Origin: Scedosporium boydii
Lineage: Eukaryota; Ascomycota; Sordariomycetes; Microascales; Microascaceae
Assembly (NCBI GenBank): GCA_002221725.1
Contig: NJFT01000434.1
Location: 1-10,951, forward strand
Length of the DNA stretch: 10,951 nucleotides
Direction of reading: 5' to 3'
A program made the translations under genes and the position numbers. Below, one piece after another: positions 1 through 10,951 of the stretch. How positions within the stretch are numbered: position 1 is the first letter of the stretch; each line of letters begins with the position of its first letter. The notes under the pieces were generated by a model, which did not search any database, was not told where the DNA came from, and saw nothing but the letters and a program-made list of their open reading frames with translations.

Positions 1-62
1 ATTCTCTTGAGTGGGCGGCACAGTCTTGTTTGTGTTGTTGGTTGTGCTGCCCGGCTCCGACA
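1..62 (+). repeat. 3' end of the 5' LTR (partial)
   Basis: The stretch ends in CCGACA three bases before the primer-binding site, as expected for an LTR that ends in CA. CCGACA is an imperfect inverted match (5 of 6) to TGTTGG near the start of the 3' LTR at 10827. This should be the U5 part and perhaps some R. The left edge is cut by the window, so the LTR length is unknown. Confidence 0.75.
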
Positions 63-65
63 AAT

Positions 66-86: not shown

Positions 87-155
87 CTCAGCAAGCTTGA
101 GAAGCTTCCTTTGCGAGCCGTGAGCAAACTACTCACAAAACGAACTGTTGAAGGC

Positions 156-179
156 ATGACGAGAAGTGCCGAGGGCTGA
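156..179 (+). promoter_or_regulatory. Short upstream ORF in the gag leader
   Basis: An ATG at 156 opens a seven-codon frame (M-T-R-S-A-E-G) that stops with TGA at 177-179, 17 nt before the gag ATG at 197. It is the only ATG seen between the PBS and gag. If translated it would limit or regulate initiation on gag. Its ATG has G at -3. Whether it is used is not shown by sequence alone. Confidence 0.4.
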
Positions 180-196
180 AGGCCTCGGAAATTGAG

Positions 197-1873
197 ATGA
201 CGACGACAACCGAGGAAGCCAAATGCCGTCCCAGGCCAATGGGTCGGAAAGCGAATATCTCCGTGAAGAGAGCTCCCATTGATCAGCCGAAATCGTCGGT
301 TAGTGCTAAAAAACTCTGTCCTGAGGACAAGGGTCTGACCAGACTAGCACAAGCTAGTCTCCTGCGGCGAGAATGGATTGTGGGGACCAGAAATGAATTA
401 TCGCGACTTATCGATCAGCAATTGGGAAGCCAAGAGAAAACCTTTCTGTTGGGAATCCTTGCGGGAATCCTGGTTGTCTTCCTGCCGAGGCTCATCCTGA
501 CGATTGGGTTGGGGCGAGTCGTTCTTGTTGGATGCCTTCTCTACAGCGCTCGATTGCACTATGAGGTGAATTCCTTAAAGAGTGAACTTGAAGCCTTTCG
601 AGAAAACAAAAAAGCAACGAAAGAACAAGAAGCACCTTCGGTTACTCCCCATCGTCCTCCACATCCTCACTTGTCTGCCCAAGAACTGCATGCTCCTCGT
701 TCAGAGAAACCAAGTCAACACTTGTTCGAGATGTCTTCCTCCTCGATCCCTCGACCGAAAGTTCCGTATACGGATTCCTCCTCTGATGAGAAAGGAGCTA
801 CTCCCGGCTCGATCCCGAAGAATGAAGACGCCCTCGTGGACAAAGGTTCCTATAGCTTCCTGAGTTGGGCAATGGCTAAGGATAAGGTCCCGACCTTCGA
901 TGGCAACAACATCACCGAATTTCTCGATGACTGTGAAGACATCTCCTACTATCATCGTGGAGGGTTCTCTGGAAAACGTGCTGTCCTCCGTGAGGCTGTT
1001 CGCAAAGCTGATCGAGGTGTTAAGTTCACTGTCCGGGAAATCCTCGATGCGGCCAAGAATTGGGAAGATGCCAAGAAGCAACTGCTCGAATCGTTCCGGT
1101 CTGATGATGCCCTGCAACTCGGAGGCTACGAGGATGAGTACGCCAAGCACCTAGAGAAGAAAGCCCCGAAGAACTGGACGGAGTTGAATCAGTGGCTTCG
1201 AACTTGGAGAGTCCTAGCCAGCAAGTGCGGGAGCGCGGTTATCTCAGAAGAACGAAAGCGTCAAGACTTGTGGACGGTGCTTTCGAAGGACCACGTTGAC
1301 CGCATCAAAATGATCAAACATTGCACCAACGCTGAGCTGAAAGCTATGACTGCAGATCAGTTAGTCAAAGCTATGATGGCCACTATAGCTGAGGAGGTGG
1401 AAACCGACATGCAAGATCAGCGTTATTACGGTACGTCGTACACGACCCCAGCTCGAAAAATGGCTGATCAGCCGGTTTCGACACGATCGTTCGCCCCCGA
1501 GCGGCCTGCGACGCCCCCGCCTGCTAAGCATGTTACCATTGATTCCCCTCTTAAGACTGCCTCGCAGCATGAAGAACCTAATACCGACGACAAGATGGAT
1601 AAGCTGATCAGCAGCATGGAGAAACTCACCCTCTTCTTCATGCAAGGACGCGGCACGGATGACGTCCACCGCCTGCCTCATCTTAATGCACTGAGGACCC
1701 GACCGCAGTTCAGATGCTGGTACTGTGGGCATGAACATGATCGAGGCAAATGCCAAATCCAAGCAAACATCGAATCACACGGGTTCGCAGTCTACCATCG
1801 AGGACGGATTGTCATAACCTTCGGTTTTGATGAACAAGATATAGACAAACGTTTGGACGTTTCAAGGTCATAG
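197..1873 (+). CDS. gag: Gag polyprotein with N-terminal hydrophobic segment and zinc knuckle
   Basis: This is a 558-aa structural protein that would form the virus-like particle and bind the genomic RNA. Residues 1-80 are basic. Residues 83-116 are strongly hydrophobic, broken by P97-R98 and R107, like one or two membrane-spanning helices; they are followed by a charged, possibly coiled-coil stretch (about 118-145) and a Pro/Ser-rich linker. Residues 229 to about 400 look like a Ty3/gypsy capsid, starting at the KVPTFDG motif usual for fungal Gags. The C-terminal knuckle is C507-X2-C510-X3-H514-X4-C519, one residue shorter than the standard CX2CX4HX4C. The ATG at 197 has G at -3. The frame ends at a TAG in the same frame as the protease ORF. 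The hydrophobic segment is unusual for a Gag. The capsid and knuckle assignments are from motif recognition. Confidence 0.9.
   Translation: MTTTTEEAKCRPRPMGRKANISVKRAPIDQPKSSVSAKKLCPEDKGLTRLAQASLLRREWIVGTRNELSRLIDQQLGSQEKTFLLGILAGILVVFLPRLILTIGLGRVVLVGCLLYSARLHYEVNSLKSELEAFRENKKATKEQEAPSVTPHRPPHPHLSAQELHAPRSEKPSQHLFEMSSSSIPRPKVPYTDSSSDEKGATPGSIPKNEDALVDKGSYSFLSWAMAKDKVPTFDGNNITEFLDDCEDISYYHRGGFSGKRAVLREAVRKADRGVKFTVREILDAAKNWEDAKKQLLESFRSDDALQLGGYEDEYAKHLEKKAPKNWTELNQWLRTWRVLASKCGSAVISEERKRQDLWTVLSKDHVDRIKMIKHCTNAELKAMTADQLVKAMMATIAEEVETDMQDQRYYGTSYTTPARKMADQPVSTRSFAPERPATPPPAKHVTIDSPLKTASQHEEPNTDDKMDKLISSMEKLTLFFMQGRGTDDVHRLPHLNALRTRPQFRCWYCGHEHDRGKCQIQANIESHGFAVYHRGRIVITFGFDEQDIDKRLDVSRS
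1871..1873 (+). promoter_or_regulatory. In-frame UAG between gag and protease, candidate readthrough stop
   Basis: The gag stop is TAG (context TCA TAG ACT). The same frame stays open after it to 3340, so one readthrough event would make Gag-Pro. A UAG between gag and the next frame is the arrangement used by murine-leukaemia-type retroviruses. Alternatives are re-initiation at the ATG at 1925, 51 nt later, or a recent CAG to TAG mutation. No strong stem was seen just downstream. Confidence 0.45.
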
Positions 1874-1924
1874 ACTCGCTACCTCACAGACAACAAAATA
1901 CCTTTCTTGGACTTTATTATAGCC

Positions 1925-3340
1925 ATGTACACACTCTACGAGATCCCTGGCAGTCGAGCCTACGAGAGAGCAGCTAAGCGAATAGATTTCCCTAATCCGA
2001 GCACTGAAGCGCAGGCCGTCGCCAGAGAGTTTTACGAGGACATTCATAAACTTTGGGATGAAGAGAAGGCTAGAGGCTTCGCAAGGAATAGAAGACGACC
2101 TATCTTCTCTAAGAAGGAGCCCGAAATAGCTGCAACGAACTTCGTCGAAGCCTATTCGTTTGAAGATAAGACTACCCCTGAACAGTGGTTCGTCACAGAG
2201 GAAAGCAGCGCGGGTCCCTTAGACGAGGAGGACGCCCATGTCCTCATGGCTGGAGCCTATAAGAGGCAAAGGGTGACTATTGAGGAACCCTCTAGGACTT
2301 CCCTTGACCAAGGACGGGAACAAGAGGCGGAAATGCCGCCTACTGATCAGCCGATTCCTGCAAAGACAAACCCTGCGGACATTCCTGCGAGCAACGAGAC
2401 GGCAAAACGGCCACAACTGCCTGACCCGCCCCGAATTCCAGTCGAATCCGCCATTGTACAGCGAATGATGGACAGCACTATCAAGATGTCGATCCAAGAA
2501 TTAGTCTCCTTCCCAGGCATCCAGGACCTAATACACCGCAAAATCTCTGATGTACCCGATGGAATCAGAACACATTATCTTCCCGGCAAGCCAATTTCAA
2601 AAGAAGAAGCCCGGCAACAAGGAGAGAGGAACCGGAATCCAACTGCCCGATACCTGGAAGCTGTTCCTGATCCAGTGATCAATAGTTCCCAATGCGTACT
2701 AGCCAATCCCGACAAAGTGCCTAACCCGAAAGTTAACTGGGATGGGGACTGGGCACGGGATATCCTCAGAAATGGCCTCCCTCACATACGAATGATATCC
2801 GCCGCTACGGAAGATGATGATCAGTGGGATTCTGCACCGAGGAATCCAAGGGCCTTCACGTTAAATTTTTTCACCCCAGAGAACATTGGCCCCATCCAGC
2901 GATCCCCATACATTCGAGTTAAGATTGGGGCTGGGACGAACAAGGATATCATTGGAGTCATAGACACTGGAGCTGAGCTTAGTACGATCTGTGAGAGCTA
3001 TGTGATAGCTAATAAGATCGTGTACGAGCGGTCAAAAGTGGCGTGCCAAGCCTTCAATAGAAGCCGGCCCCTTGAACTTCGTGGACGAGCCAACACAACT
3101 TTGTGGTTGGGAGGACGCGAAATCAACCTTAAGGTTTTTGTTGCCGAAGACTCGCAAGTGACGGTGCCTCTGCTGCTTGGAATGCCTTTCATCCGCGCTT
3201 CGAAGTTCACTTTCAACCATGATGACAAGAGTGGGCTCGTGAGAGGTGAAATGATTATAGGCGGAGCTCGTCTCGTGGTGCCACTCCTGGACTCGCCCAC
3301 TCTTGTCAGCAGGGAGGGAAACGAGATCAGGGGGTCCTAG
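1925..3340 (+). CDS. pro: Retropepsin-type aspartic protease ORF (pro), with long N-terminal region
   Basis: Counted from the first ATG the product is 471 aa; by readthrough of the UAG it would begin at 1874 and be fused to Gag. Residues 1 to about 310 match nothing I recognise and include a Pro-rich, probably disordered linker. The C-terminal third is a retroviral-type aspartic protease: the active site D-T-G-A is at residues 347-350 (gac at 2963), and the LLLGMPFI stretch further on resembles the second conserved glycine motif of the family. It would act as a homodimer inside the particle to cut Gag and Pol. The frame stops at 3338-3340, overlapping the pol frame, which is open from 3250. 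A -1 slip at 3316-3322 joins the two. Confidence 0.9.
   Translation: MYTLYEIPGSRAYERAAKRIDFPNPSTEAQAVAREFYEDIHKLWDEEKARGFARNRRRPIFSKKEPEIAATNFVEAYSFEDKTTPEQWFVTEESSAGPLDEEDAHVLMAGAYKRQRVTIEEPSRTSLDQGREQEAEMPPTDQPIPAKTNPADIPASNETAKRPQLPDPPRIPVESAIVQRMMDSTIKMSIQELVSFPGIQDLIHRKISDVPDGIRTHYLPGKPISKEEARQQGERNRNPTARYLEAVPDPVINSSQCVLANPDKVPNPKVNWDGDWARDILRNGLPHIRMISAATEDDDQWDSAPRNPRAFTLNFFTPENIGPIQRSPYIRVKIGAGTNKDIIGVIDTGAELSTICESYVIANKIVYERSKVACQAFNRSRPLELRGRANTTLWLGGREINLKVFVAEDSQVTVPLLLGMPFIRASKFTFNHDDKSGLVRGEMIIGGARLVVPLLDSPTLVSREGNEIRGS
3316..3322 (+). promoter_or_regulatory. -1 ribosomal frameshift site G GGA AAC between pro and pol
   Basis: The heptamer GGGAAAC lies in the phase X XXY YYZ relative to the protease frame (codons GGA at 3317 and AAC at 3320), 16 nt before the protease stop. 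A -1 slip puts the ribosome in exactly the pol frame, which continues to 7026. G GGA AAC is a known retroviral slippery sequence of simian type D retroviruses. A bulged stem lies downstream at 3340-3371. Confidence 0.78.
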
Positions 3341-6300
3341 CTGGAAGTGGCTCCCTTCCTAGCCACCCAGCGCTCCCATTCTTCAATCCAAGTCCTCTCC
3401 CATCACTCGCCGAACCAACTAATTCCCTTCTCTACGAACCCTTGCCTCCCGTTTCCGCACCAGACAACATCATAGCCAACCTCCTTCCAGGAGAACAACT
3501 AATCACCGAGATTCCGTTCGATCTAGCCCAGAACGCCTATCACCTTCTTGCAAAGGTGGGGGGAAGAATGCCGAGCACTGAGATGCAATTCGGGTTCAAG
3601 CCACTCCGCAATACTAGGTTACAAGAAGGTGAAGCGGCGGCTGTCCTGATGATCGACGCCTTCTGCGAGATGATAGGAAGGTTCTCCACGAGAATGGCCC
3701 CGAGGAAAGTCAGAAGAAAAAGGGAGAAGCAAGCCAAAGTGATCGCGGATGTCTGGACCTTGTACAAACGGAAAGCCCTGAAGGTTCGACCAGTGGATGA
3801 TGCCCCTCCCGACGGAAGTGCCCCCGCTGTTGACCCCCGATGGAAGACAAAAGCATGGAACAAAGTGAAAGGACAACTACAAGAAACGAAATACAAAGGA
3901 TTTGTTACGCCTCGCTTCACTAAGATCCCCAGGGGAACTCGGCTTACGAAAGAACGTCTAAAGGATATTGTTAAGGGTGTTGCGGACCGAATGACCCCCG
4001 AGGAGCTTGCCTTGTTCACCGAAATCCTCTATAATCGGGAAGCAGCTTTGGCCTGGGACTTCACGGAAATCGGCCTAATCAAGCCAGAAGTCGTGCCCGC
4101 TCAAGAAATACGAACGGAACCTCACAGAGCATGGCAATTACCATCGATCAGGATTCCGCCGGGAATGATTAAGGCCCTCGTCGATATTCTGAAGGACAGG
4201 ATCGCTAGAGGCATCTTGGAGCCCGGACATGGGGCGCACAGGAACCGAATCTTCCTCGTAGGAAAGAAAGATGGCGGATTCCGACTGATCACTGACTGTC
4301 AACCTTTGAACCGGCATACGATTCGCGACGCCTTTATCCCTCCAAATGCTGAAAGATTCTCAGAATCTATAGCGCAATGTATGGTTCTGTCCTTGATCGA
4401 CTTGCTTTCTGGATATGACCAGATCGAGCTTGCGCCTGAGAGCAGGGACTTTACTGCCTTTGAATCGCCTATTGGTCTACTACGGATGTGCAGGCTGCCT
4501 CAAGGAGCCACGAACTCAGTTGGGCAATTCATGAGAGCCATCACCACTGTTCTGTATGACTTGCTCCCCCACATCGCCGAAGTCTACATCGACGATATAG
4601 TCGCTAAGGGGCCCACGACGAAATACAATAATGAGATCCATCCCGAACTGCCCGGAGTGCGAAGGTATATGTACGAGCACTTCTGTAATGTTGACGCAGT
4701 GCTGTTAAACCTTGAACTTGCCGGAGCATGTGCCTCGGGAGGGAAGAGTCTGTGGGCAGCTTCGTCCTGTGTTGTGGTCGGATATATGTGTGGGAATGGA
4801 ATGCGATCTCCTGGCGACTTTAAAGTCCGGAAGATTCTGGAATGGCCGCCGTGTCAGGTTGTCAAAGACGTACGCGGGTTCCTTGGCATAACAGGATTCT
4901 TCAGGGTATGGATTGTACGATATGCTATAGTCGCCGAACCCCTGACCAGGCTATTGAAGAAAAACGCTCGATTCGTCTGGGGGCCCGAACAGCAAGAATC
5001 AATGGACTCCCTGAAGAGAGCCCTCGCTGATCAACCGGTTTTGAGAGTTCTGGTTTACTCTGAAGACGCTGGAACGATTTATCTCACTGTCGACGGAAGC
5101 CCAACTGGCTGGGGCGCCGTATTAGCGCAAATCTTCGAAGACGGCAAACATCCTGTTCGATATGAAAGTGGTTGCTGGACGGAAACAGAGAAGCGGTACG
5201 ACCAGACAAAGAGAGAAGCAAGAGCTGTCCTTGCTGCGTTCCGGCGGCTTCGCCATCATCTGACGGGAATAAGGTTCATTTTGGAAACTGACTGCCGGGT
5301 GCTCGTCTATCAATTAAACAAGAGCTCTACAGATATCCCGAGCGCAGTGATCAACAACTGGATCGCCTACATTAGGCTGTTCGACTTTGAAGCCCGTCAT
5401 ATACGAGGGAAGGATAATGATGCGGCTGACGCCCTGTCTCGCAAGCCCCCTGGAGAGTCGGATCTACAGGAGCTCCAAGAAGACCAAGATCTCGACGAAT
5501 TCGTAGAACAACATATCCTTCTTCTGGAAGAATCTTCGCCGCTTGATGGATCCTATTCGGAGGAATCTCTCCAGATTGCCCGATTCCTTTTAACCCTCGA
5601 ATGTCCTCCAAACCTCAACGCGCGAGACCGCAGTCGATTCCGGTCTAAGTGTTTGAAATTTCGTGTTGATCATCGTGTTCTGTGGGCCAGAGCTACGAAA
5701 ACACTTCCCGAACGCAGGGTAGTGGACGACGATGGTGAAAGAAACAAAATCTTCACAGAATTACATGATTCGTTGGGCCATCGAGGCCGAGATGCGACAT
5801 ACCGACTGATCAGCCAAAGGTACTATTGGAAAGGACTTTGGAAATGGGTTGCGGACAAAGTAAAAGCCTGTGCCGAATGTCAACGATGGGATCCGAGACG
5901 CCCTGAGGACCCGGCACAGTTTACCACGCCCGGGCGCCCGTTCCACAAAGTCTTTATCGACATCCAGCACATGCCCCAAGACCGATCCTTCCGGTACATC
6001 GCCGAAGCCCGCTGTTGCCTCACTGGATTTCTACAAGCGGGAGCATTAGCAAAGGCTGACGCGAAATCAATGCGAAGATGGTTTCAACAGGATGTCCTTA
6101 ATGTCTATGGCCAACCCTTCGAAGTGGTCATTGACGGCGGACCAGAAAATAAGGCGGAATTCGCGAAGAACTTAAAAGATAGAGGAATTCGAGTAATCCT
6201 CCTGTCAGCTTATAACCCTCGAGCAAACGGAATGGTCGAATCCGGACACTTCACCTTGGCTGGAATTCTTGCCAAGTCTTACACCAAGAAGTGGGCCGAT

Positions 6301-7026
6301 ATCCTTTCCCATGCTCAGATGGCCGACAGGATCACGGTTCGAGCCTCTACCGGGTACAGTCCCTTTTACCTTGTTTTCGGATACGAACCAGTACTCCCGA
6401 TCGAAGTTGAAGTCCCTACTTGGAGACTACTTAAGTGGGATGAGGTTCAAGGAACGGAAGACCTTATAACTGCTCGGACTAGGCTGCTGCTACGGAAAGA
6501 AGAAGATATCGCGCTTGCAATCAGAAAAGCCACGTCCTTTAGAGAGAAACTTGCGGACCGGACGAATAGACTCAACCGCTTCAAGCTTCGGAACGCTCCT
6601 CTACAGGAAGGGAACTTGATCCTTCTGTATGACGAAGTTAGAGCATCCGACATGTCCGCAACTAATAAGCTCAAACCACGTTGGAGAGGACCTTTTCGAA
6701 TTCGAGAACTACATAAGGACGGCAAGAGTATACGACTGGAAGAGCTTAATGGTACACTGATCAGTGGTTTTCACCCTTCTCACAGGGTCAAGCGCTTTTA
6801 TACGACCTCGGACGGCTGGGTAATAATGGACAAGGACATAGAAGACGACCCCCAGCCGGAAGCACTTAGTGGCGATGGGGAAACCACTGATCAACCGCAA
6901 GAGACCTTGATCCGACCCCGGAGACCGCAGTTTCACCCCGAAGATCCTAATCACGAAATCGAAGTTCAACTCCCGGAAGTTCGGAATCAAGACGAGTACG
7001 AAGATTACCTTGACGAAACTGGGTAA
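3322..7026 (+). CDS. pol: Pol: reverse transcriptase, RNase H, integrase
   Basis: The frame is open from 3250 and is entered by the -1 shift at 3322; its first ATG is only at 3568, so frameshifting is the likely route. After a linker of about 280 residues comes the RT: the metal-binding Asp of SLIDLLSGYDQ at 4399 and the Y-I-D-D box at 4585-4596. RNase H follows, with acidic residues at 5092 (D), 5215 (E), 5290 (D) and 5428 (D). Integrase has an H-X4-H / C-X2-C zinc motif (His at 5764 and 5779, Cys at 5869 and 5878) and catalytic D (5959), D (6133) and E (6238). The last two have 34 residues between them, one fewer than D,D35E. A GPF motif (6688-6696) marks the C-terminal domain; no chromodomain follows. 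The C-terminal tail is acidic and probably disordered. All key residues are present, so the enzyme set appears functional. Confidence 0.96.
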   Translation, partial: RDQGVLAGSGSLPSHPALPFFNPSPLPSLAEPTNSLLYEPLPPVSAPDNIIANLLPGEQLITEIPFDLAQNAYHLLAKVGGRMPSTEMQFGFKPLRNTRLQEGEAAAVLMIDAFCEMIGRFSTRMAPRKVRRKREKQAKVIADVWTLYKRKALKVRPVDDAPPDGSAPAVDPRWKTKAWNKVKGQLQETKYKGFVTPRFTKIPRGTRLTKERLKDIVKGVADRMTPEELALFTEILYNREAALAWDFTEIGLIKPEVVPAQEIRTEPHRAWQLPSIRIPPGMIKALVDILKDRIARGILEPGHGAHRNRIFLVGKKDGGFRLITDCQPLNRHTIRDAFIPPNAERFSESIAQCMVLSLIDLLSGYDQIELAPESRDFTAFESPIGLLRMCRLPQGATNSVGQFMRAITTVLYDLLPHIAEVYIDDIVAKGPTTKYNNEIHPELPGVRRYMYEHFCNVDAVLLNLELAGACASGGKSLWAASSCVVVGYMCGNGMRSPGDFKVRKILEWPPCQVVKDVRGFLGITGFFRVWIVRYAIVAEPLTRLLKKNARFVWGPEQQESMDSLKRALADQPVLRVLVYSEDAGTIYLTVDGSPTGWGAVLAQIFEDGKHPVRYESGCWTETEKRYDQTKREARAVLAAFRRLRHHLTGIRFILETDCRVLVYQLNKSSTDIPSAVINNWIAYIRLFDFEARHIRGKDNDAADALSRKPPGESDLQELQEDQDLDEFVEQHILLLEESSPLDGSYSEESLQIARFLLTLECPPNLNARDRSRFRSKCLKFRVDHRVLWARATKTLPERRVVDDDGERNKIFTELHDSLGHRGRDATYRLISQRYYWKGLWKWVADKVKACAECQRWDPRRPEDPAQFTTPGRPFHKVFIDIQHMPQDRSFRYIAEARCCLTGFLQAGALAKADAKSMRRWFQQDVLNVYGQPFEVVIDGGPENKAEFAKNLKDRGIRVILLSAYNPRANGMVESGHFTLAGILAKSYTKKWADILSHAQMADRITVRASTGYSPFYLVFGYEPVLPIEVEVPTWRLLKWDEVQGTEDLITARTRLLLRKEEDIALAIRKATSFREKLADRTNRLNRFKLRNAPLQEGNLILLYDEVRASDMSATNKLKPRWRGPFRIRELHKDGKSIRLEELNGTLISGFHPSHRVKRFYTTSDGWVIMDKDIEDDPQPEALSGDGETTDQPQETLIRPRRPQFHPEDPNHEIEVQLPEVRNQDEYEDYLDETG
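3340..3371 (+). promoter_or_regulatory. Stem-loop downstream of the slippery site
   Basis: GCTGG (3340-3344) pairs with CCAGC (3367-3371) and GTGGCT (3347-3352) with AGCCAC (3361-3366), giving 11 base pairs with a two-A bulge and an 8-nt loop. It begins 17 nt after the heptamer, longer than the usual 5-9 nt. An alternative helix of the G run 3330-3334 with 3351-3355 would sit 7 nt away. Which one forms needs folding or probing. Confidence 0.5.
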
Positions 7027-7181
7027 TAAGTTAGATTGAAGAAGCTACTATAGCTTAGTTTCCTTTGTTCTGATCTCTTATTTATTTCTTTTCTTTTAAT
7101 TCCCTTAAGTTGCTATCTACATTCCTTAATCCCTTATTCCATCTCTGCCCCGTTTTCCTTATTGTTATCACTCCCTCCCTC
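7027..7181 (+). other. T-rich spacer after pol, likely 3' end region of the antisense gene
   Basis: This 155-nt non-coding stretch is pyrimidine-rich on the + strand. Positions 7045-7069 match 10746-10770 at 21 of 25 bases, including 13 identical bases in a row (AGTTTCCTTTGTT). On the minus strand the sequence AATAAA (complement of 7081-7086) lies about 96 nt beyond the antisense gene's stop, a plausible polyadenylation signal for that gene. Confidence 0.6.
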
Positions 7182-8130
7182 TTACCAAGCGGCGTAATCG
7201 GCTGGCGGAGCGGGCATAGGAATCAAGGCTCCACGCTCGCCGAGGTCAGCATGTCTAGGACGTTTCAACGAGAGAGAAGACTGCCCGCGACGATTAGCCG
7301 CCCGGATCTGATCCTTCTTGTTCCCCTTCTCCGCCTCGTCGAAGAACTCGATGCCCATACCCGACTCATCCGAATCCACTGCGTTAGAAGACTCCCCTGC
7401 CTTCGATAGAATGTGGTAACTGCATTGTGGCGCGCACATGAGAAACATGCAGTTCGAGCAAGCCCCAAACCAGTGGCCAGGCAAGGAAACGCATTCGTCG
7501 AAAGGATAAGGTAGTGGCTCATAAGAACCAAGGGGGGCCCGCTGAAAACCGATACTGCTGTACCTACGTACGCAGCACTCGCAAGCAATTGGATTGCGCC
7601 GGCCATAGAAGGCGATCAGCAGGGCCTTGGTCCTTTGTGGCCTCTTGGTCAACCATAAGTCCATGCAATGACTCCAAGGAAGCCCCACGTTGCGCGGCAG
7701 GAAGACTCTATTCCGAGGTTTGAAAATTGCATTGCCAACGAGCCCACGATCTACGGCCATCCTCCTCAGCTGGCTCGTCGCAGTAGCAATGGTGCCATCA
7801 TGATTGCCGAGGGATTGGAAGAAGTAATGAGGAGTTCGATTCCCGCTGAACGCTGTTGGCTCCAACACCCATTCGACGAATCGAGAATCTTGGCACTCAT
7901 AGACACGGAGAACCTTCAGGATCTGATAAGATGTTAATAGTTGGACGCTTGTGAAGTCTCAAGGAACTTACTGTCCGGCAAGCCTCAGCATTGGCTTTGA
8001 AAATCTCTTCCTTCTCAGGGAACTCTTCTAGAGGCTCGACACAAATATAATGACTTTTCGGCTTGAAGTCAACAGGGAAATCGGTTTCAGGGGTGATACC
8101 CTTTTCGCTTGGATCTTGATCCCACGACAT
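7182..8130 (-). CDS. Antisense two-exon gene with DUF3716-like cysteine-rich domain
   Basis: Reading: complement(join(7182..7922, 7972..8130)), 299 aa. Exon 1 starts at a true ATG (8130-8128, A at -3) and encodes 53 aa. The intron 7971-7923 begins GTAAGT, has TATTAAC as branch site and ends TTATCAG. Removing it joins exon 1 in phase to a 246-aa exon 2. Residues about 167-220 hold a cysteine array: C-x-C-C, then PFDECVSLPG, GACSNC and a final QCS. This matches the fungal DUF3716 family as I remember it, a probable zinc-binding domain of unknown function. The C-terminal part is acidic, then basic (KK, RR, KRPR), suggesting a nuclear location. The gene lies opposite to the retrotransposon and shares a promoter region with the protease gene. 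Its function is unknown; DNA or RNA binding is a guess. Confidence 0.78.
7923..7971 (-). other. 49-nt spliceosomal intron in the antisense gene
   Basis: On the minus strand the donor is ACA|GTAAGT (from 7971), the branch site TATTAAC (branch A near 7934) differs by one base from TACTAAC, and the acceptor is TTATCAG (ending 7923), 11 nt after the branch A. Length and spacing are typical of fungal introns. Exon 1 is 159 nt, so the intron is in phase 0 and splicing restores one long frame. Read unspliced, the frame ends after 77 codons. Confidence 0.8.
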
Positions 8131-8689
8131 CGTGCTGATATTGGGATGATTGCTGTGGAAAAAGAGAGGGAAGAGTTACGGAAGGGAAACGGCTTTTCTG
8201 AGTCCCTTTATGTTTGCTGGAATGGTCAAGTTCAATGATTTAGAGGGAAGGAAGAGAAGTTGGAGTGGAATGGGTTGCAAACAAAGTGACTGCCTGAAAC
8301 CAGTAGTCACAGCCGCTGGCATTCCTGATCACAAGGAAATAAGGCCCACAAAGGAAAGCCTGAAGATGGCGATGATTCCCCAAACGAAGACAGCGAAATG
8401 AATCATTGAACTCGAACAATCCACCACCATTCCAGACATCTATAAAAACACCCTTCCTCCTCTTCCCGAACAACATTCCCCCCTCTCCTCGCTGCGACCA
8501 GCCATCTTATCAAATTTGACATTCCCTGATCAACCATTTGGATCGCTAGCGAAGAAAGAAAAGCACCTTCCTCGACTAACACCTTACACCCTAATAATCC
8601 TCACCTCAATACGACCCCTTACTCCACGAAACAACCTCGATTCCGCCCGCTAGCGCAGAAACCCACTGATCAATTGGCCCTTGATCACT
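8131..8689. promoter_or_regulatory. Divergent promoter region between the antisense gene and the protease gene
   Basis: No coding sequence is recognised in these 559 nt. Leftward, the minus strand has a TATA-like CATAAAGG (complement of 8205-8212), then a pyrimidine-rich stretch, and no ATG before the gene start at 8130. Rightward there is TATAAAAA at 8441-8448, a CT-rich stretch at about 8451-8490, then a G-poor leader with no ATG and no GT dinucleotide before the ATG at 8690. This is the look of fungal core promoters. Four copies of TGATCA lie here, at 8326, 8527, 8667 and 8682. It implies that both genes can be transcribed independently of the LTR. Confidence 0.6.
8441..8448 (+). promoter_or_regulatory. 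TATA box for the C48-like protease gene
   Basis: TATAAAAA is followed within a few bases by a CT-rich tract and then about 240 nt without any ATG up to the protease start at 8690. It is the best TATA match found in the interior of the element. Confidence 0.55.
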
Positions 8690-10675
8690 ATGCTGCCTCA
8701 GAGGGTGGTCAAGCGGGGGTTGGATGAGTTCCCCAAACAGTCCGTGGCTGTATCCCCTCCGGCGCAAGGCACCGACCGCGACATCCTCGTCTACCCTGTT
8801 CGAATCCCACAAGTTCGAGAGCACATCCGATACCGACCAAGAAAGGGAGAAAGGACTGTTTTGGAGTGGATTGACTTCCCGCACTGGCGAAAGCATCACC
8901 TAGTCGAACGACTAGCTCGGGAAAATGGGAGGCATAAACTCGGCTTCGTCGAGATTGTTGATTACTTATACTCCCTTGACGAGACCCTGGCGCGGAGGGC
9001 CTGGCTGAACCAAGATGAATTGAATGTTGGGTTCATTTTGGCAACCTTGGGGCTATCCAATGTCACCGTAATCCCATTGTACTGCCAGCTCCGTCCAGAC
9101 GACCCTTCCTACACAGCCGGCATCAAGTTCACTGTAAAGGAGGGAAGAAGGGAGAGGCCTTACCGAGCCCTATGGGCGAGTGGCGAAGGGGTATGGCACA
9201 CGCGGTACATGGTGACTTGCCTACACTTTAACGAGCCAGCCCACTGGACGACAATGATCTGGGACGAGGAGGCGGAAGAGTTGTACCTGTATGATGCCCT
9301 TTACGAGAAACGGGACACCAGGATTGCAATCAGTGTTGAAGCGTGGGCTGCGCGGAGGAGAAAGGAGGGAAAGTCGGACAAATTCGTTGCTATCTGTCCT
9401 ACCCAGACAGCACAGGGCGTTTGGGAATGTGGCCTCCTAGCTATCGCCAATGTCTTTAACTTCTTCCGACCCCCGTCGACCGTTTCCCGCGCCCATGATC
9501 CGTCCCACCAATGGCGCTCTGCCCATAGGGTGGGCAACTGGACACTTGACGGGATGGACCATGCGACGAAGAACGAGCAATTGGATAAGTTGGTCAATTT
9601 TTGGAGGGCCACTATCTACAACTTCTTTGGCAACCCGATTAATATCCCCCTTAACCCCTTCCACCCCCTAACTATTGGGCTACCGGACAGTACACTGAAG
9701 GCCGGAGCGAGTGAATGGAAGTTCTTGTGGGAAGAGAACTTCGATGCATCCAAGCCAGTCCTAGAGGAGTTGAGAAAGGACGCCGAGGCAGTCAGGAACC
9801 AAGCAGGACACCTAGAGAGGTTGGGAAGAGTGTCAAAAAGCCGGGATACGCCTCTTCTCACCAAGGAACAAATTAAAGCTTTCCTGCTAGCTCCTAGCTT
9901 CGAGGCTGGGAAGTTAATGTTACCTAACTTAGACAACGCTCAGCGGGCATATAACCCGTATCGAGTTGCCGCGGATGGGGGGGCGGTACAGTGGCCTTTC
10001 CCATTCTTCCTTGGGACGGACCAGTGGGAGTCCCGTTCTTCGGCCCCCCCTCCAAAGCACCCTGTCCCCGCCAAGCCCGCCGAGCTCTTCCCACCAAAGA
10101 CGCCATCGAAAGCAGTAGTTCCTTTCAAGGGATTTAGCACCCCTGCCGACCAACCGCCTCCACCCATTGACACGCCCGAGCCTTTCACGTTCAGCCCGGA
10201 AGCTCGCAAGAAGAGCGAACCCCCGTATTACGACCCTACGCCATCAAAGCCCTCTAAGTTGGCGAAACCTTCTCGATCCCCAACACACGAGCCTCCCTCA
10301 GATCGCCCGGTTCATTCAGCGAGCCACAAGAAGGCGCCATCGACAGTAAAGAAGAGGAGGCGAACTCAGGGAGCCCCACCGAAGTCTCTCAAACCACCCT
10401 CCCGACCTCCGTCTCGCCAGTCACAAAGAACTAAGGAGCGGCCCCCATCCCGTAGATCTCAAAGGATCAGGGGACAGCCCCAATCTCAACCAGCCTCCGA
10501 CCGCCAAAGATTGCCACCATGGATGCCGGATTACGAGCGGCGAGAATTCCGTGACCGGGAGACAGGAGAGGTCTTCACTCCCACCATGACGAACATGTTT
10601 ACAGAGTCAGTATGGGCGGGACTCAAGGGAAGGGCCCGAGAGAGATATGAGCTGCTGGGAAAGCAAGGTAACTGA
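8690..10675 (+). CDS. Ulp1/C48-like cysteine protease with basic disordered tail
   Basis: The product is 661 aa from the first ATG (A at -3); an in-frame stop lies at 8651. The core, residues about 105-256, resembles the Ulp1/SENP (peptidase family C48) fold: W105-L-N-Q-D-E-L-N start motif, catalytic His in A-H185-W, Asp in LYLYD202, a Gln (239 or 242) and Cys in W-E-C247-G. Ulp1 enzymes cut SUMO or similar modifiers; some relatives cut viral polyproteins, so the substrate here is open. The spacing between Gln and Cys differs from canonical Ulp1. Residues about 445-625 are Pro/Ser/Lys/Arg-rich with KKRRR (554-558), a likely nuclear signal, and two 12-residue units starting RPPSR at 572 and 584. 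The conserved-looking end (PPWMPDYERREF onwards) is not recognised. It is sense to the element but probably has its own promoter. Confidence 0.75.
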   Translation: MLPQRVVKRGLDEFPKQSVAVSPPAQGTDRDILVYPVRIPQVREHIRYRPRKGERTVLEWIDFPHWRKHHLVERLARENGRHKLGFVEIVDYLYSLDETLARRAWLNQDELNVGFILATLGLSNVTVIPLYCQLRPDDPSYTAGIKFTVKEGRRERPYRALWASGEGVWHTRYMVTCLHFNEPAHWTTMIWDEEAEELYLYDALYEKRDTRIAISVEAWAARRRKEGKSDKFVAICPTQTAQGVWECGLLAIANVFNFFRPPSTVSRAHDPSHQWRSAHRVGNWTLDGMDHATKNEQLDKLVNFWRATIYNFFGNPINIPLNPFHPLTIGLPDSTLKAGASEWKFLWEENFDASKPVLEELRKDAEAVRNQAGHLERLGRVSKSRDTPLLTKEQIKAFLLAPSFEAGKLMLPNLDNAQRAYNPYRVAADGGAVQWPFPFFLGTDQWESRSSAPPPKHPVPAKPAELFPPKTPSKAVVPFKGFSTPADQPPPPIDTPEPFTFSPEARKKSEPPYYDPTPSKPSKLAKPSRSPTHEPPSDRPVHSASHKKAPSTVKKRRRTQGAPPKSLKPPSRPPSRQSQRTKERPPSRRSQRIRGQPQSQPASDRQRLPPWMPDYERREFRDRETGEVFTPTMTNMFTESVWAGLKGRARERYELLGKQGN

Positions 10676-10814
10676 TTGATCAGTCGTTTTATCATGGTTA
10701 ATTCTTAAGAAAGGCGTTACAGTTTACTATTTTTTCTTCGATGTTCTACTATCATTAAGTTTCCTTTGTTGTTTTCCTTTTCTTTTTGGTGAATTTTGCC
10801 TGAGGCAAAATTCA
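10676..10814 (+). other. T-rich non-coding region before the polypurine tract
   Basis: This spacer contains the second copy (10746-10770) of the block found after pol, followed by pyrimidine runs. It also holds a 10-bp palindrome TTCTTAAGAA at 10702-10711 and ends in the hairpin listed separately. No coding frame is supported. Confidence 0.6.
10790..10814 (+). repeat. Perfect 11-bp hairpin next to the polypurine tract
   Basis: TGAATTTTGCC (10790-10800), loop TGA, and GGCAAAATTCA (10804-10814) form an 11-bp stem with a 3-nt loop and no mismatch. It ends directly before the purine tract that should prime plus-strand synthesis. It may shape the RNA around the primer, act in 3'-end formation, or be a protein site. 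Confidence 0.75.
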
Positions 10815-10824
10815 GAGGGAAGGA
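10815..10824 (+). promoter_or_regulatory. Polypurine tract (plus-strand primer)
   Basis: The ten bases GAGGGAAGGA are all purines and are followed directly by TGTGTTGG, the start of the LTR. Position and composition fit the RNase-H-resistant primer of Ty3/gypsy elements. Confidence 0.75.
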
Positions 10825-10951
10825 TGTGTTGGTGTATAGGGCGACTGGCGGCGGCGCCGCCACATTACTGATCGGTGCCGCCACCGGAAGCCCGATGTGC
10901 CACACATCCGAACCTCACTTATACATAAAAGGATGATGGCCCCCCATTTTT
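10825..10951 (+). repeat. 5' part of the 3' LTR (U3, partial)
   Basis: The LTR starts TGTGTTGG at 10825 or, by the inverted match to the 5' LTR end CCGACA, TGTTGG at 10827. It carries a 12-bp palindrome GGCGGCGCCGCC (10850-10861), a direct repeat of GG(C/T)GCCGCCAC at 10853 and 10874 (21 bp apart), an inverted repeat GATGTG/CACATC (10894-10908), and a TATA-like TATACATAAAA at 10920-10930 that could drive the genomic transcript. The window ends inside it. Confidence 0.75.

Follow-up and report, generated by a model that had tools for sequence, protein, structure and literature searches.

The Ty3/gypsy element examined here, from Scedosporium boydii, probably carries a real accessory gene that lies antisense to the genomic RNA and contains one ordinary fungal intron; we give this reading, in which the product is most likely a nuclear zinc-binding regulator, a probability of about 60%. 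Two minus-strand exons join into an open frame, the second encodes a DUF3716 domain, and a distantly related element of the same genome has a matching frame at the same place and on the same strand.

Organization of the element

The window, i.e., the whole stretch of DNA analysed (10,951 nt), is a complete contig (C434) of a 42.9 Mb assembly in 442 contigs. Its features are:

1-64, plus strand: 3' end of the 5' LTR; this segment alone recurs at LTR-only places
152-1873, plus strand: gag-like frame ending in TAG; no Pfam family over its cut-off
280-10682, no strand: 19 scattered TGATCA sites (motif counts), none within 7182-8130
1874-3340, plus strand: protease frame, in the same frame as gag after the TAG; matched in the distant element on C115
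3250-7026, plus strand: pol frame with reverse transcriptase, RNase H and integrase zinc-binding domain (RVT_1, RT_RNaseH, RT_RNaseH_2 and Integrase_H2C2 over cut-off)
7182-7922, minus strand: exon 2 of the antisense gene including the stop, 741 nt; protein-level match in C115
7413-7625, minus strand: DUF3716 domain (product residues 153-223), matched over profile positions 1-59 of 59 at 26.2 bits against a cut-off of 22
7923-7971, minus strand: putative intron of the antisense gene, 49 nt, with GTAAGT, TATTAAC and TATCAG; splicing predicted from sequence
7972-8130, minus strand: exon 1 of the antisense gene, 159 nt, 53 codons from ATG; open frame with coding-like codon usage
8131-8689, no strand: gap of 559 bp between two divergent start codons, with TATAAA at 8441 on the plus strand
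8690-10675, plus strand: third ORF, 661 aa, with a C48/Ulp1-like catalytic layout by eye; matched in C115; no Pfam family
10825-10951, plus strand: start of the 3' LTR, inside which the contig ends; this segment alone recurs at LTR-only places

The partial LTR at each contig end identifies an LTR retrotransposon, and the pol order RVT_1 - RT_RNaseH - Integrase_H2C2, with every domain over its Pfam cut-off, places it in Ty3/gypsy. LTR-only places on C214, C27 and C165 measure 495-497 bp, with a wider spread elsewhere (748 on C347). From the window plus the sizes of these places, the full-length element comes to ~11.75 kb; a copy on C12 (62937-74707) measures 11,771 bp. The protease frame matched gag-asp_proteas weakly, at 18.9 bits and under the cut-off of 28.2. 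The TAG between gag and protease (1871-1873) is polymorphic, being a sense codon in two of the eight copies that cover it, and pol overlaps protease at 3250-3340 in a different frame, which suggests frameshifting. A strong hairpin with the purine tract within its stem (10780-10826; -19.8 kcal/mol, z -4.8) stands just before the 3' LTR. At the window's right end, three other contigs (C408, C106 and C86, seen in L042, L044 and L045) meet it in exactly 127 bases that are 100% identical. This looks like a collapsed repeat or a shared node of the assembly graph, and on that basis the contig may represent two or more near-identical copies.

An earlier note on this DNA placed the antisense gene between pol and the 3' LTR. 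That location is correct but incomplete, as a sense ORF which the note did not mention (8690-10675) occupies the same region. The element's 3' end is a cassette of two divergent genes, the antisense DUF3716 gene and the sense ORF of C48-like layout, whose starts point away from each other across the 559 bp. This gap may act as a promoter.

An antisense gene with an intron

The minus-strand exon opening with ATG, the 49-nt intron signals and the restoration of the frame by joining, all described in the earlier note, were borne out at the level of sequence: exons 8130-7972 and 7922-7182 together encode 299 aa without an internal stop. A strict scan for introns (GTA[AT]GT, a branch point and [CT]AG) on both strands of the window returned two candidates, 7971-7923 and 2789-2721, and the former showed no changes other than those of the repeat-induced point mutation (RIP) type across 11 other copies of the family.

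Codon usage was scored with a model based on gag, pro and pol together with the third ORF. Exon 1 scored 0.22, a value reached by none of 162 wrong-frame stop-free stretches; true coding stretches averaged 0.135, and 81% of them scored no higher than exon 1. Codon usage in exon 2 was weak (-0.06 overall), and when the exon was divided into thirds the gene's frame was the best of six in one third, with a plus-strand frame best in the other two. Support for the gene thus comes from codon usage for exon 1 and from homology for exon 2. No ATG occurs near the start of the exon-2 frame ahead of its conserved part. The C-terminal part of the 299-aa product contains a KRPR stretch, which may be a nuclear signal. 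Structure prediction from the single sequence gave a mean pLDDT of 34.4 for the product, i.e., no structural support, and 33.9 with no usable fold for residues 1-374 of the third ORF; because of these values no fold search was made with either.

Sense genes of retroelements lose introns since the genomic RNA passes the spliceosome, and an antisense gene is exempt from this loss. In the mechanism that we favour, transcription of the antisense gene by host RNA polymerase II would begin between the two divergent start codons, and the intron would be cut out of that transcript by the spliceosome of the host. The genomic RNA carries nothing but the complement of the intron, which cannot be spliced, and for this reason the intron would persist. 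Intronless sense ORFs beside an apparent intron in the antisense gene are as expected from splicing of the genomic RNA, and the argument that the intron would survive reverse transcription in this way is sound and fits them. The product would then be a nuclear zinc-binding protein that regulates expression or silencing of the element itself. Such a role is our best guess, suggested by the cysteine-rich, probably zinc-binding domain and the KRPR stretch and by analogy with the Grande and Retand proteins of plants.

The DUF3716 domain and its host relatives

The DUF3716-like cysteine array noticed earlier was confirmed by a Pfam HMM search, in which the spliced product matched DUF3716 (PF12511) over the gathering cut-off, at the score listed above; the exon-2 frame taken from stop to stop scored 26.8 bits. 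Six other places in the genome also passed the cut-off, in stretches of 49-53% G+C without a pol match. Five ORFs were tested at these places and four matched DUF3716; the exception (L029) is probably in the wrong frame. The element protein and four usable host rows have in common the cysteine spacing C-x2-C, single Cys, C-x2-C, although one host row lacks the first Cys of the second pair and the last Cys is present in most rows; the row host_C4, which is off frame, was left out of this comparison. Matches over cut-off in stretches without pol, together with the common cysteine spacing, indicate that the domain also lives in host genes.

Apart from the family copies and the distant element on C115, fragments on C208 and C91 were the only genome matches to the antisense protein. 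The C91 stretch (L023:4040-4424; 53% G+C) is DUF3716-like at 19.4 bits, below the cut-off, and is nearer to the element protein than the other host rows are in the region before the second cysteine group. The C208 stretch (L022:5536-7151) holds one piece of the third ORF (75%) and one of the antisense gene (40%), both un-RIPped; unlike their arrangement in the element, the two lie on the same strand.

Copies of the family and their mutation

A DNA search with the antisense gene found 12 places: the window itself and 11 more, with 69-86% identity. The family's remaining pol copies, also 11, are at these same places, so that every copy has the antisense gene, one of them (L016) in rearranged form. 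For nine of the 11 the alignment with the window is one continuous piece (7.5-9.8 kb, 0 to 11 gap positions), and for another (L019) it falls into two. Nearly all differences between the window and the 11 copies (21,790 of 22,054) are C>T or G>A, a pattern which we take to be RIP. The fetched copy stretches have 24-35% G+C, compared with 51% in the window. Between L009-L019 and the window, changed cytosines make up 86% of CpA, 81% of CpG and ~10-12% of CpC and CpT; RIP here strikes CpA and CpG about equally, not CpA alone.

Further copies had been proposed as material for a dN/dS comparison. The copies exist, but the comparison fails within the family and is uninformative because RIP has destroyed all 11 of them, pol included. 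The exon-2 frame has 10 to 19 stop codons in each copy and the pol frames are broken too in 11 of 11. Differences outside the RIP pattern number 264. Counted as distinct changes, they are 4 silent and 7 replacement (one a stop) in the antisense gene, 34 and 25 in pol, and 10 and 15 in the third ORF. Within the family, these counts do not point to purifying selection on the antisense gene, and they have little power.

A relative in a distant element

The same genome contains an element on C115 whose pol is 35% identical to that of the window. After this pol, the opposite strand holds a relative of the antisense protein, 25% identical over 199 columns (E=1e-16, or from 1e-12 to 8e-14 under other settings), and the third ORF is matched next, on the sense strand, at 28% (E=2e-13); order and strands are those of the window. 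In a six-frame comparison of the window with C115, the match in the antisense interval was confined to the gene's own frame (7335-7937, 66.6 bits); pol also produced reverse-strand shadow matches. The antisense match is the strongest evidence that a protein-coding frame has been kept here over long times, and with a relative on the same strand and at the same place the antisense gene looks like an old resident of the element. Exon 1 had no significant match in C115 (892 of 2000 shuffles scored as high). The C115 sequence directly ahead of the exon-2 match is TTAACTAGTTTCTAG, similar to a 3' splice site; we give it no weight because such strings are common in RIPped DNA.

Other relatives bear on whether the two genes of the cassette travel together. 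On C36 (L024:4545-6485) the third ORF is 47% identical, and the 4.5 kb upstream of it contain no antisense match; on C213 the third-ORF match is truncated and again has no antisense match beside it. These relatives, in which no antisense gene is detectable, speak against a fixed pairing of the two genes. The third-ORF match on C31 begins at the contig edge. After a second distant pol, on C261, 5 kb of 21% G+C gave no match to the antisense protein and a best third-ORF match of E=0.25; a third distant pol lies on C199.

Searches beyond the genome returned relatives of pol. In the protein collection the antisense product had 0 relatives among 622 candidates and the third ORF only a 100% identical protein; pol had 542 relatives, with Colletotrichum, Ophiocordyceps and Fusarium among the best 120 of the 542. 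Scans of viral contigs with the antisense protein, pol, the third ORF and a pol alignment found no relative, nor did a scan of prokaryote genomes with the antisense protein. The pol alignment identified seven contigs in prokaryote assemblies (L034-L040; 33-41% in pol), of Ty3/gypsy type and inside Trichormus MAG, Beijerinckia mobilis and Synechococcales MAG assemblies, where they are probably contamination. In L036 and L040 the next gag-like ORF follows within ~1 kb after pol, which leaves no room for the cassette, and in L034 the 1.2 kb after pol have no match to it. L035 and L038 extend less than 0.8 kb after pol, and L037 and L039 are cut inside pol.

The third ORF

The third ORF matched no Pfam family at E<=10, the Peptidase C48 / Ulp1 profile included, and its 270-aa middle part had no relative among PDB sequences. 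The C48 peptidase motif consists of His, Asp, Gln and Cys in that order, and by eye the ORF shows H185-W, D202, Q239/Q242 and C247-G in C48-like order. Its relative in C115 keeps the Asp and the Cys-Gly, and the His-Trp and Gln positions differ there by RIP-type changes. We describe the ORF as C48-like in apparent layout and do not call it a member of the family.

An enriched palindrome

TGATCA occurs 19 times in the window, compared with 3.2 expected from trinucleotides and a mean of 6.4 (maximum 14) in 300 runs of an order-3 null. Among hexamers only CTGATC, which overlaps it, ranks higher, and the top heptamer is CTGATCA. Per 10 kb, the density is 17 in the window and 2.4 in nine other stretches of the genome (79.7 kb), about a sevenfold difference. 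Synonymous-codon shuffles never reached the 14 sites that lie in sense coding frames (0 of 1000; mean 5.2, maximum 12). The longer form YTGATCAR occurs 11 times where the genome's own rate predicts 1.0 (P about 8e-9); genome-wide it is found 3,821 times, compared with 1,636 for the reversed pattern. Five coding sites spell Asp-Gln-Pro in frame, so part of the enrichment may be a repeated peptide; further sites fall in different frames or in non-coding sequence. The idea that TGATCA is a site spared by RIP was rejected: 4 of 172 were kept, compared with 8 of 460 for all TGNNCA (TGATCA included).

One accessory protein, either the spliced antisense DUF3716 product or the C48-like one, might bind the scattered (Y)TGATCA(R) sites as a means of self-recognition against silencing; we regard this as a long shot. 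If it did, the accessory protein would protect or activate the element's own copies, a fungal LTR-element counterpart of the VANC proteins, and the intron of the antisense gene would be kept alive through its placement.

Alternative explanations

The existence of DUF3716 host genes raises the question whether such a gene, or part of one, was captured in antisense orientation with its intron and has since been a functionless passenger. The six other places over the DUF3716 cut-off in stretches without pol would supply a source, and the within-family changes, 4 silent to 7 replacement, would be compatible with an idle gene. A free passenger, however, would not be expected to have a relative at the same place and in the same frame of an element whose pol is only 35% identical, after so long a time, and we consider this explanation unlikely. 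The C115 match also bears on the possibility that the antisense transcript acts as RNA, e.g., as double-stranded RNA with the genomic RNA, with the protein irrelevant, as has been proposed for plant antisense ORFs in a review (PMC7264820). An RNA of this kind would keep neither one reading frame across distant families nor the DUF3716 cysteines, which makes it the least plausible account.

A further alternative accepts the exon-2 frame as a real antisense gene and questions the gene model, which might lack the intron or have a different first exon. Exon 1 is unmatched in C115 and splicing is predicted from the sequence, which leaves room for such an error. Against it are the strictness of the intron signals, which a single further site in the window matches, the coding-like codon usage of exon 1 and the missing ATG ahead of the conserved part of exon 2, and we judge a wrong model improbable. 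The preferred reading remains that of an accessory gene of the element with an ordinary intron and a product that probably regulates from within the nucleus.

Comparison with known systems

The idea that fungal elements have no described antisense genes was not supported; the earlier note knew of none with a spliced antisense gene of this kind. Boty-like elements of Botrytis cinerea are described as fungal Ty3/gypsy elements with an extra antisense gene, brtn, between pol and the 3' LTR (PMC7264820, PMC8365987, PMC4227169), a likeness compared by description only. A review names Boty of Botrytis and Sclerotinia as having an antisense gene (PMC7264820), Zhao et al. 2011 is the work cited for brtn (PMC8365987, PMC4227169), and a Monilinia transcript is reported to resemble BRTN (PMC5987419). 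The Boty polyprotein is described with a chromodomain (PMC4227169), whereas Pfam found none in the window element.

Among plants, Tat-type elements (Grande with gene23, RIRE2 and Retand) share a conserved antisense ORF between pol and the 3' LTR (PMC7264820). The Grande gene is described as having its own promoter and a nuclear product (PMC7264820), and nuclear or DNA-binding roles are suggested for the plant antisense proteins (PMC7264820, PMC11963269). Unlike the window gene, the plant ORFs are reported with domains such as Transposase 28 (PMC11963269), not DUF3716, and the excerpts of these sources mention no intron.

Two other systems resemble parts of the cassette. The HBZ gene of HTLV-1 is spliced. 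It is likewise an accessory gene on the antisense strand of a retroelement, and its product is a nuclear regulator (PMC11963269), but HTLV-1 is a retrovirus and HBZ is transcribed from the 3' LTR (PMC7264820), whereas the start of the window gene lies 2.7 kb before the 3' LTR, and no homology is claimed. The VANDAL/KIU elements with VANC anti-silencing proteins likewise carry genes for accessory proteins, with an Ulp1-like part in KIU copies (PMC13317346), and a short motif that is dense within the element (PMC5735166), as TGATCA is strongly enriched here. They are DNA transposons whose motifs stand in tandem in non-coding DNA, whereas the TGATCA sites form no tandem arrays in non-coding DNA, being scattered and mostly (14 of 19) in sense coding frames; no protein homology has been shown.

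In a literature search with most subscription papers outside its scope, and hence weak as evidence of absence, neither a spliced antisense gene in a fungal LTR element, nor a DUF3716 protein in one, nor a divergent two-gene cassette was found, and DUF3716 itself had 0 mentions. With an antisense gene at this place already known in plants and Boty, the novelty seems to lie in the intron, in DUF3716 and in the pairing of two divergent genes in one cassette. The element would then be a concrete fungal case of a reverse-transcribing element that keeps an intron-bearing gene by placing it on the other strand, and its cassette combines a domain shared with the host, a second gene in divergent orientation and a possible target motif, so that the role of antisense accessory genes becomes testable.
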